From positions 1 to 37,549 of the forward strand of contig MHQP01000011.1 in the NCBI GenBank assembly GCA_001820685.1: DNA of 37,549 nt, given 5' to 3'. The position numbers were made by a program, and so were the translations under genes. Each line of letters begins with the position of its first letter. Positions within the stretch are counted from its first letter, which is position 1. The stretch is from Candidatus Sungbacteria bacterium RIFCSPLOWO2_01_FULL_47_32. Lineage in GTDB: Bacteria > Patescibacteriota > Minisyncoccia > Sungbacterales > GWA2-42-14. Below the pieces are notes generated by a model. The model ran no database searches. It had not been told where the DNA came from and saw only the letters and a program-made list of their open reading frames with translations. This document shows positions 3,162 through 33,157 of the stretch, piece by piece.

Positions 3162-4994
3162 ATGGAAGCAATCGATATCAGAAAAAAATTCTTGAAATTT
3201 TTTGAAGAGCGGGGACACACTATTGTTCCCTCCAGCTCCCTCATACCAGACGACCCGTCCGTTCTTTTGACGACGGCGGGCATGCAACAGTTCAAGAAAT
3301 ATTATATGGGCGAGGCGGATCCATATATGACTATTCATCCGTTGACCGCTAAGCCGCTCGGCTCAAAAAGTGCCGCCTCCGCGCAGAAAAGCTTCCGTAC
3401 TTCCGATATTGATGAAGTTGGGGATGAGGGGCACCTTACGTTTTTTGAGATGCTCGGCAATTTCAGTTTCGGCTATAAGCCCGGCGAGTCTTCTCCAAAA
3501 AGCGGATATTTCAAAAAAGGAGCTATCACGTACGCGTTTGATTTCATAACCAAAGAAATGGAACTTTCAATTTCATATGTAACGATATTTAAAGGTTCGG
3601 ATGCAGTGCCCAAAGACGAAGAATCGCGCTCGGTTTGGAATTCTCTTGGGGTAACAGACGTTCGCGAAGAGGGGATGGAAGACGTGTTTTGGGGGCCGAC
3701 GGGAACTTCAGGCCCATGCGGTCCAACGACGGAGGTATATTGCAAAACTGTTGCCGGGAAAGACGTCGAAATATGGAATATCGTATTCAACGAGTTCTTC
3801 TATCCGGGTTCGCGCGAAGAACTGCTTTCCGGTTCTTCCGGTAAAAAACTGGAGAGCTTGAAAGTGGCCGGAGTGGATACGGGCATGGGGTTTGAGCGGC
3901 TTGTCATGATTTCGCAAAAAAAAGCGACAATTTTTGACACGGACCTGTTTGCTCCGCTCCTTGAGCTTTTGTCGTCCGCCGTCGAACTTCGCCATAAGCG
4001 CATTATTGTTGACCATCTTCGCGCGATGAGTTTCCTTATAGCCGACGGAGTGCGCCCCTCAAACAAGGAGGCAGGATATGTTTTACGGAGACTCATGAGG
4101 CGCGCATTTGTATACGAACACATGTATCAAATTCCTCCTCATGTTTTTGACGCGCTGGTTCACGATATTGTTCACGAATATGGAGAGTTTTATCCGGAAT
4201 TGCTGAAACACAATGATGATATTCGTGAAGAAATGAAGAAAGAATACGACAAGTTCGCCAATACCCTGAAGCAGGGCGTGAAAAAACTTAAAGAAGTAAA
4301 GGAAGATTCTATTACCGCCGAAAGCGCCTTTCGGCTGTATGAGTCGTTCGGGTTGCCGTACGAAATAATAAAAGAGCTTGGTGGAGCGAAGACAGCCTCG
4401 CTTACGCGCGAAGCGTTCGACGCCGAATTCAAAAGGCATCAGGAAATTTCGCGCGCCGGACAGGAAAAAAAATTCGGCGGGCACGGCCTTTTGCTTGACA
4501 CTGGGGAACTTAAGGCGGCCAACGAAGAAGAACTTAAAAAAGTGACCCGACTGCACACGGCGACTCATTTGTTGCAGGCGGCGTTGCGGAAGGTCATCGG
4601 ATCCGAGGTTCATCAGGACGGCTCGGATATTACGGTGGAGCGTACCCGCTTTGATTTTACGTTTCCGCGCAAACTCACGCCGGAGGAAATAAAGCAAGCA
4701 GAGAATGTTGTAAACGAGGTTATTCAAAAAGATATGCAGATGACGCACGAAGAAATGAGTTATGAAGATGCGTTGAAATCGGGGGCGCTCCATTTTTTCA
4801 AAGAGAAGTATCCTCTGCGGGTAAGCATCTATACTGTTTCCGATAAAAAAACCGGAGAGGTTTTTTCGAAGGAATTTTGCGGAGGACCTCATGTAACGCA
4901 TACGGGCGAAATAGGGAGTTTTAAGATAATTAAAGAAGAAGCAAGCTCGGCGGGGGTGAGAAGGATACGCGCGGCGGTTGAAGACAAAAAATAA
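3162..4994 (+). CDS. alaS: Alanyl-tRNA synthetase, short form lacking the C-terminal domain
   Basis: Charges tRNA-Ala and clears mischarged Ser/Gly. The class II core starts DIRKKFLKFFEERGHT and includes the motif 2 region HLTFFEMLGNFSFG and the motif 3 region GVDTGMGFERL. The editing domain has its metal motifs H465-T-A-T-H469 and C573-G-G-P-H577. The product ends about 30 residues later at 610 aa, whereas typical bacterial AlaRS is about 870 aa. The oligomerisation helix and DHHA1/C-Ala domain are therefore missing. The ATG at 3162 is preferred to upstream in-frame starts because homology begins there and the promoter -10 sits 7 nt upstream. Confidence 0.95.
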   Translation: MEAIDIRKKFLKFFEERGHTIVPSSSLIPDDPSVLLTTAGMQQFKKYYMGEADPYMTIHPLTAKPLGSKSAASAQKSFRTSDIDEVGDEGHLTFFEMLGNFSFGYKPGESSPKSGYFKKGAITYAFDFITKEMELSISYVTIFKGSDAVPKDEESRSVWNSLGVTDVREEGMEDVFWGPTGTSGPCGPTTEVYCKTVAGKDVEIWNIVFNEFFYPGSREELLSGSSGKKLESLKVAGVDTGMGFERLVMISQKKATIFDTDLFAPLLELLSSAVELRHKRIIVDHLRAMSFLIADGVRPSNKEAGYVLRRLMRRAFVYEHMYQIPPHVFDALVHDIVHEYGEFYPELLKHNDDIREEMKKEYDKFANTLKQGVKKLKEVKEDSITAESAFRLYESFGLPYEIIKELGGAKTASLTREAFDAEFKRHQEISRAGQEKKFGGHGLLLDTGELKAANEEELKKVTRLHTATHLLQAALRKVIGSEVHQDGSDITVERTRFDFTFPRKLTPEEIKQAENVVNEVIQKDMQMTHEEMSYEDALKSGALHFFKEKYPLRVSIYTVSDKKTGEVFSKEFCGGPHVTHTGEIGSFKIIKEEASSAGVRRIRAAVEDKK

Positions 4995-31460: not shown

Positions 31461-31643
31461 ATGTTTCAGCGAGACGATCGAGGAAGCGGTGGCCGGGGCA
31501 ACTGGTCACAAGGTCCTCGGGAAATGCACCCGGCAACATGTTCTGATTGCGGCAAAGAAACGGAAGTTCCGTTCAAGCCGTCATCTGGACGCCCAGTGTT
31601 CTGTCGAGACTGCTACGCCAAAAAGCGCCCAGCTCGATATTAA
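31461..31643 (+). CDS. CxxC-x17-CxxC zinc-ribbon protein
   Basis: 60 aa. The motif CSDCGKETEVPFKPSSGRP and VFCRDC gives C-x2-C-x17-C-x2-C, the pattern of the small zinc-binding family named for this spacing (TIGR04272). The N-terminal half is Gly/Arg/Asp-rich and disordered. Such proteins are common in CPR; their role is unknown, and nucleic-acid binding is a guess. It has a single promoter and a long structured leader, and a strong terminator follows. No SD lies between the leader helix and the ATG. Confidence 0.85.
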   Translation: MFQRDDRGSGGRGNWSQGPREMHPATCSDCGKETEVPFKPSSGRPVFCRDCYAKKRPARY

Positions 31644-31650
31644 TTCCTTC

Positions 31651-31677
31651 AAAATCCCGCTCTTTGAGTGGGATTTT
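31651..31677. terminator. Terminator after the zinc-ribbon gene
   Basis: AAAATCCCGCTC-TTT-GAGTGGGATTTT: a 12-bp stem with one G-T pair, able to terminate both strands. Confidence 0.9.
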
Positions 31678-31681
31678 GATT

Positions 31682-31872
31682 TTCACTGTTTGTCCGGCCG
31701 ACGAAAGCGGACGGGAACAAACAGTGAACCCCGTACCAAGCTTAGAAGCAAAGTATTTTCAAGGCACAAGTAAGGCGTAGCAAAGCACATAATAGCTTTT
31801 GTGCTTTGCGAAGGCGGTACCGAGAGGTTGGCTTGGAGTAACCCTTGCGAACCTTCGAGCTTTGGTGCGGGG
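31682..31872. ncRNA. Complex multi-helix intergenic element, candidate structured RNA or REP-like repeat
   Basis: Helix A: 12 bp TTCACTGTTTGT (31682-31693) / ACAAACAGTGAA (31717-31728) capped by a GC-rich tip with ACGAAAG loop. Closing helix P1: 31729-31743 / 31857-31872, 15 pairs with one bulge and two G-T. Inside P1 is hairpin B, GCAAAGCACA (31780-31789) / TGTGCTTTGC (31800-31809), and P3, CGAAGG (31809-31814) / CCTTCG (31852-31857), enclosing a GGTT/AACC hairpin. The end of P1 shares a base with P3. No convincing protein is encoded. Orientation unknown. Confidence 0.5.
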
Positions 31873-31885
31873 CGGCGATTTACTT

Positions 31886-31915
31886 TTGAAAACAAGGGCG
31901 CATTCATGCTACTAT
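31886..31915 (+). promoter_or_regulatory. Promoter of the FAD oxidoreductase gene, leaderless
   Basis: TTGAAA (31886-31891), 18 bp, extended -10 TGC-TACTAT (31910-31915), 6 nt before the ATG at 31922. Confidence 0.7.
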
Positions 31916-31921
31916 TCCCGT

Positions 31922-33157
31922 ATGCGATACGAATACATCATCATAGGCGGAGGGATTGCGGGAATAACCGCCGCCGAGACCATCCGGGAGCATGATCCAA
32001 AAGGAGAAATCGCGATTTTTTCGAGGGAGCCGCATTTGCTCTATTCCCGCGTTGAGATACCAAGTTTCCTTAAGGGCCTCGTCAGGCGCGACCAGCTTTT
32101 TTTGCGTACTCTCGGCGACTTCGATAAAAAAAGAATAAATCTTTTTTCGGAGCGCTCTGTTGAATCTATAAATATACGGCATAAAAAAGTCGTCCTCGAT
32201 AACAGGGAATCTGTTTTTTACGGGAAACTTCTTATTGCGGCGGGCGGGGAGTTGGAACAGTGGAAAGTTCCCGGGGCATATTTGAACGGGGTAGTACGGA
32301 TGCAAACGCTCGACGATGCGGACGCTATCGCAAAGCATTTGGGCGAAGCAAAAAAAGCGGTTGTTGTAGGCGATTCGTTCACAGCGCTCGAATTTTTGGA
32401 AATTTTTTCATTAAAAAAAATTCCAGTGACACTCGTGTGCCTTGCGCCGTCGGTTTTCCCGGCTATACTGGATGCGGCCGGCATGGAACTTTTCACGCAT
32501 AATTTTAAAAAACATAAAATCGAAACACGGTTTGGAGAAAGCATCCGCGAAGTGAAAGGAACCGAATGTGTTACGGGGGTTCGCACAAGCCGCCCCGCAG
32601 AACTTGAGGCGGACACTGTGGCAGTGGACCTCGGCAGCACAAAAAACCTCGTTTTTTTTACGGGGCAGGATATCGAGATCGGAAAGAACGGCGTCAAAAC
32701 GAACGAATATCTTAAGACAAGCGGCGAAGACGTTTGGGCGGCGGGAGATATCACCGAATATTATGATGTTGTGTTCGAGCATCATCGGAGTGTTTCCAAT
32801 TGGACATCGGCATTTTTGCAAGGAGAAACGGCGGGACTCAACATGGTCGGCAAAAAAACTCCTTTCAAAAACGTATCGTTTTACTCCATAACGAACCTTG
32901 GATTGCACATTACGGCTCTTGGAGAATGCGAAACGGGGCCGGATATTGAAACAGTTTCGCGTTCCGACACATTGCAGGGAATGTACGAGCGTTTTTTTCT
33001 TGACCGGAGCGGCATTCTCAAAGGAGTATTCATTAGTAATATGTTTCAAGACAAACCGATACTCGCAACCTGGATAGAAAGAAAAGTTTCTCTTGCGGGC
33101 ATTAGGGGGCGCTTATCCGATATCGGACTTGACCTCAAGGATGTGGTTATCGGGTAG
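31922..33157 (+). CDS. FAD/NAD(P)-dependent pyridine nucleotide oxidoreductase
   Basis: 411 aa, two-dinucleotide-binding-domain flavoprotein. The FAD motif is YIIIGGGIAGITAAETIRE at the N-terminus. The NAD(P) motif is AVVVGDSFTALEFLEIF, in which the usual G-x-G-x-x-G is degenerate (GDSFTA). The second FAD motif is VWAAGDITE. No CxxC disulfide is present, so it resembles rubredoxin/nitrite-reductase-type or ferredoxin reductases rather than disulfide reductases. The ATG at 31922 starts the FAD fold; longer upstream frames run into the structured element. It is the first gene of a redox run. Confidence 0.85.
   Translation: MRYEYIIIGGGIAGITAAETIREHDPKGEIAIFSREPHLLYSRVEIPSFLKGLVRRDQLFLRTLGDFDKKRINLFSERSVESINIRHKKVVLDNRESVFYGKLLIAAGGELEQWKVPGAYLNGVVRMQTLDDADAIAKHLGEAKKAVVVGDSFTALEFLEIFSLKKIPVTLVCLAPSVFPAILDAAGMELFTHNFKKHKIETRFGESIREVKGTECVTGVRTSRPAELEADTVAVDLGSTKNLVFFTGQDIEIGKNGVKTNEYLKTSGEDVWAAGDITEYYDVVFEHHRSVSNWTSAFLQGETAGLNMVGKKTPFKNVSFYSITNLGLHITALGECETGPDIETVSRSDTLQGMYERFFLDRSGILKGVFISNMFQDKPILATWIERKVSLAGIRGRLSDIGLDLKDVVIG

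Follow-up and report, generated by a model that had tools for sequence, protein, structure and literature searches.

The question raised by positions 31682-31872 of the window (the whole stretch of 37,549 nucleotides that was analysed) was what kind of element lies there. A novel ncRNA, a large REP-like repeat and a mobile element had been proposed in the first-pass annotation, which described a multi-helix element between a terminator and a promoter. The plus strand of this segment folded at -86.2 kcal/mol, compared with a shuffle mean of -55.0 (sd 4.0, z -7.8), and none of 200 shuffles equalled it; the fold is therefore far beyond chance, which bears out the observation. The minus strand folded less well (z -4.9). 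The predicted 12-bp stem, closing helix, 10-bp hairpin and further stem were all found, although the exact pairing of the closing helix differed in detail from that predicted. The position between the terminator and the promoter was also confirmed. The features of the locus are as follows.

31461-31643, plus strand: flanking gene for a 60-aa treble-clef zinc-finger protein (PF23477 zf_Tbcl_2, E 1.5e-20), outside the element.
31649-31679, plus strand: intrinsic terminator that directly precedes the element and has the insertion site in its T-tail.
31682-31728, plus strand: hairpin 1, a perfect 12-bp stem formed by arms V (TTCACTGTTTGT, 31682-31693) and V' (ACAAACAGTGAA, 31717-31728).
31729-31872, plus strand: closed module, CCCCGTACCAAGC ... 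GCTTTGGTGCGGGG around the conserved core (match to covariance model R2, 56.9 bits, E 2.3e-10).
31729-31745, plus strand: 5' arm of the closing helix, from fold and covariation.
31770-31825, plus strand: conserved core, with the consensus AAGCCGMAGGCGATWCCGNG across the family; in the window copy it is interrupted within its hairpin loop.
31780-31809, plus strand: 10-bp hairpin inserted in the core loop, read from the sequence; most homologues lack it.
About 31820-31851, plus strand: further stem, from the fold.
31856-31872, plus strand: 3' arm of the closing helix and right end of the element, from fold and covariation.
31886-31915, plus strand: sigma-70-like promoter of the FAD oxidoreductase, outside the element.
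31922-33157, plus strand: flanking gene for a FAD/NAD(P) oxidoreductase (Pyr_redox_2), ATG at 31922.

On the minus strand, an open frame of 74 codons (31683-31907) spans the whole element; no Pfam match was obtained for it. The element was left unmatched when the window was compared with Rfam at gathering and permissive thresholds. Matches to AbsR25 and rnk were rejected because they were weak and driven by the terminator, on which they ended without covering the element.

A search for homologues and covariation had been suggested in the first-pass annotation, which would have been abandoned had neither been present; both were found. With BLASTN, only a single copy was detected in the genome itself and short fragment matches in relatives, a picture that was misleading until a covariance model was made. 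Starting from these matches, the same architecture was recognised in four relatives, in which the arms TTCAnTnTTTGT / ACAAAnAnTGAA were followed directly by CCCCGTACCAAGC ... GCTTTGGTGCGGGG, with compensatory changes. Model R1 was built from five homologous sequences, and R2 was a second model; their E-values are rough owing to short calibration. In the window's own genome, R1 located the element at 7 places (E<1e-5) and R2 at 10 (E<2e-4), the copies being diverged. Because the best 10 candidates per genome were scored in the searches of large sets, the counts are lower bounds: at least 92 of 286 relatives carried copies in the R1 search, with at least 10 in the richest genomes. When GTDB contigs containing the 20-nt core were examined, the full model was matched only in Patescibacteria (Moranbacteria, Parcubacteria, Sungbacteria and further bins), some of these bins being placed in the CPR only by their agreement with relatives from our genome set; numerous further bacterial contigs matched the core by chance, and none of them fitted the full model. 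A phylum-wide model search gave few matches; since the best 10 candidates per genome were again scored, absence from other classes is weak evidence. In viral contigs, the exact end pattern was matched 0 times and the core pattern once by chance, with no model match. Literature searches returned nothing relevant to the element family. The family is previously uncatalogued, non-coding and Patescibacteria-specific, with a length of about 105-215 nt.

In its members, hairpin 1, whose arms V and V' vary in sequence but remain paired (V' being the reverse complement of V), is followed directly by the closed module, mostly 109-114 nt long. The family closing helix, CCCCGYACCAATTC / GAATTTGGTGCGGGG, has 14 bp, and in most type-A copies the core AAGCCGMAGGCGATWCCGNG starts 43-44 nt from the 5' end and ends 47-49 nt before the 3' end. 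The linkers are AU-rich, with fixed length and free sequence. Variants include copies with a second subtype of the core, copies that consist of the module alone and copies flanked by a hairpin on each side; no ORF-bearing copy was seen among the loci read.

The structure is real and evolutionarily constrained, so that the segment is rightly called structured. In 52 sequences, the structure was 95.8% paired (the closing helix 95%), and two-sided changes were present at 10 of the 14 closing pairs (64 such cells, shuffles giving 15). A one-base shift of the pairing partner abolished this signal, and the top five column pairs by mutual information all lay within this helix. Apart from the closing helix and the core hairpin, no internal helix covaried across the family; therefore, the extra 10-bp hairpin of the window is specific to that copy.

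The plus strand folded better in 77 of 107 copies (p 6e-6), and wobble pairs in the closing helix read on this strand were G.T in 31 cases versus A.C in 11 (p 0.003); in the start-codon subset alone, this bias was small (10:5). The better fold and the G.T excess suggest that the plus strand is selected as a single strand, also where the neighbouring gene runs the opposite way. These data fit RNA and ssDNA alike.

The element is an insertion. The zinc-finger gene served as a synteny anchor in sister genera, and orthologues of the FAD/NAD(P) oxidoreductase were found in 5 of 5 family members. The locus comprising the zinc-finger gene, terminator and oxidoreductase is syntenic and element-free in three sister genera (G003, G004 and G005), and at L343, L344 and L345 the gene and terminator are arranged as in the window, without the element. 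Within another genus, the copy at the greA start of G111 (L084) is cleanly absent from the species G045 and G089. The L094 site is empty in both of these species and the L045 site in G045, whereas the L054 site in G045 holds unrelated sequence instead of the element. Closely similar copies lie at different genes in different species: L045 (G111) precedes a glycosyltransferase-like gene and L110 (G132) precedes rplB. The copies L051 and L053 are common to two sister species. Because the copies within one genome have diverged, no recent jump was captured. The empty L045 site already holds TTCATGTCAT, which could be the trace of an excision or a repeat that was there before. On the gene strand, this empty site (L179, G045) reads ATGACATGAA, in which the start codon is doubled, a possible footprint of excision.

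Of the kinds originally proposed, the miniature mobile element gains support from the multiple dispersed copies, the sites that are empty in relatives and the target-like repeats; a stand-alone ncRNA gene is not supported. The family, which is dispersed in multiple copies, keeps a conserved fold, is missing from orthologous sites and is placed precisely at gene boundaries, is probably one of miniature non-autonomous mobile elements, the window copy having been inserted just after the terminator T-tail.

Candidates for a mobilising enzyme were sought in the Y1, reverse transcriptase and TnpB families, and neither an autonomous copy nor a gene for mobilisation turned up among the loci read. A palindrome of the REP/BIME type, spread by a REP-associated tyrosine (Y1/HUH) transposase, would account for intergenic palindromes with a single-strand bias and strand-specific hairpins beside the target, and Y1 genes are common in the clade (183 of 286 genomes). 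However, they were found in 60 of 92 element carriers and 123 of 194 non-carriers (OR 1.08, p 0.79), Y1 matches were absent from seven element-rich genomes (G011, G029, G045, G103, G114, G191 and G221), and the 30 best Y1 loci contained no copy. HUH elements are, moreover, not expected to give an apparent target duplication, and the element is a multi-part structure of 105-215 nt. This origin is accordingly considered improbable. Reverse transcriptase was likewise unassociated with the element (46 of 92 versus 92 of 194; OR 1.11, p 0.71), and the TnpB domain PF07282 was nearly absent, occurring in 3 of 286 genomes, all without the element. All three families were rejected as mobilisers.

The placement of the copies was studied at 100 loci, with left boundaries taken from the covariance model and neighbouring genes from simple ORF readings. 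At 27 of 100 loci the left edge fell on an antisense start codon, exactly at +2/+3; random positions in these loci did so in 0.52% of cases. A stop codon at +1 was found at 6 of 100, compared with 0.1% of random positions. Because the model was built on sequences starting with TTCA, these exact offsets are somewhat biased; requiring a long open frame on the opposite strand introduces no such bias. Other left edges lay at a T-tract, often a terminator tail. A coarse sorting put 34 copies near an antisense start, 7 at a stop and 33 elsewhere; terminator tails accounted for 15 and other T-tracts for 11. The statement that the segment is not an obvious 5' or 3' UTR holds for the window copy, but many other copies adjoin start or stop codons. 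Those at start codons adjoin rplK, rplC, rplT, rpmA, nusG, ssb, groEL, recA, greA, dnaJ and others, named from their N-termini rather than from annotation. In L288, from a Moranbacteria genome, copies (458-615 and 1173-1328) sit at the start codons of two genes that lie close together and read as nusG and rplK from their N-termini.

Such neighbours, together with the covering of the start codon by hairpin 1 in these copies, would suit a cis-acting mRNA structure in a leader or 3' UTR by which the adjoining gene is regulated or stabilised, the V/V' pairing masking the start codon. This reading appears unlikely, since the better-folding strand is antisense to those genes (the small wobble bias of that subset notwithstanding), other copies follow stop codons or terminators on the same strand, close relatives have empty sites, and there is no conserved leader ORF. 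On the gene strand, ATG copies do occur upstream, but homologues share neither their reading frames nor their stops. A multi-copy, stand-alone gene for a trans-acting small RNA is hardly credible despite the strong RNA-like covariation and conserved unpaired core, given the start/stop-codon coupling, the insertion polymorphism and 7-10 diverged copies at unrelated genes, and a conserved promoter or terminator of its own was not noted.

For the mobile element reading, movement itself and the importance of the folded plus strand rest on the data given above. An enzyme encoded elsewhere would mobilise the element in trans, and the intermediate may be a single strand in plus orientation (ssDNA or RNA) folded as hairpin plus closed module. 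V' would pair with the target V at the left junction, either helping site choice or being copied from the target, and a few target bases would be duplicated at the right junction.

A V-like repeat in the right flank was found above the level of within-genome right-flank shuffles (4 of 5000 as high). It resembles a target duplication and is clear in many copies; at the window copy a clear duplication is absent (V TTCACTG, right flank CGGCGA). V and V' matched at 4.96 of 6 positions, compared with 4.24 +/- 0.13 in within-genome shuffles (maximum 4.67 in 2000). Some lineages keep V' constant (ATGAGCR), with no more than a partial match to V (L123, L048); in others V' tracks V closely. The constant V' with a partial V match fits a guide better than a copy, and since V' is steadier than V in some lineages, copying from the target is not general. 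It is possible, though tentative, that the element is guided by nucleic acid, a 5-7-nt guide V' pairing with V of a start codon, stop codon or terminator and so directing insertion to gene boundaries. The V/V' match could also stem from palindrome correction via template switching during replication. If the guide reading is true, insertion falls exactly where a compact genome tolerates it.

Patescibacteria are ultra-small bacteria that are difficult to culture, and to our knowledge their mobile DNA has been little described. A widespread family of conserved structure, landing precisely on the starts of ribosomal and other core genes, would be a new route of promoter and leader remodelling in reduced genomes. 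Enzyme identity and target choice by base pairing become testable, with the covariance models and empty-site pairs as a starting point.

Among known systems, a MITE whose body is structured and covaries comes closest to the family. Like MITEs, the element is small and non-coding and has many dispersed copies, no enzyme of its own and insertion polymorphism; its inverted ends CCCCGCACCAA...TTGGTGCGGGG, the 14-bp closing helix, form a terminal inverted repeat, and a short target duplication may be shared, the repeat of V being significant on average and clear in many copies but absent at the window copy. Unlike the fixed terminal repeats of MITEs, its ends covary compensatorily; it also differs in the separate hairpin outside the inverted ends on the left, the core at fixed spacing, the strong bias to exact start and stop codons and the lack of an autonomous parent among the loci read. 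HEARO and the IscB or TnpB omega RNAs (IS200/IS605) are structured RNA-like mobile units, often ORF-less, and HEARO inserts next to ATGA/GTGA. The element too appears to be such a unit, but the window gave no such Rfam match at any threshold tried, and no genome with the TnpB domain PF07282 bears the element. Group IIC introns insert downstream of terminators with guide-like pairing to the 5' flank, as the element appears to do; however, it is far too short, many of its placements are at start or stop codons, no intron-family Rfam match that would indicate a domain V was found in the window, and reverse transcriptase is unassociated. Since for each a defining feature was looked for and not found, the family was not filed under REP/RAYT, HEARO/omega RNA or group II introns. 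The R-box of integron attC (GTTRRRY) was not noticed by eye.

Other repeats were observed near or inside copies. At the sister-species sites of L105 and L054 (L166, L175 and L168), the same position, at a start codon or between genes, is taken by another palindromic repeat, GCGACACTAATTACGAAT...ATTGGTGTCGC, as though such sites were shared among several families of elements. The copy in L260 (element on the minus strand, 3650-3934) contains two nested occurrences of a short palindrome, CCCCGTAGTA..AGC..TACTACGGGG, which also occurs in the left flank of L124, beside another copy. In L110 and L102, a further inverted repeat of the CCCGCC...GGCGGG type is inserted on the loop side of hairpin 1.
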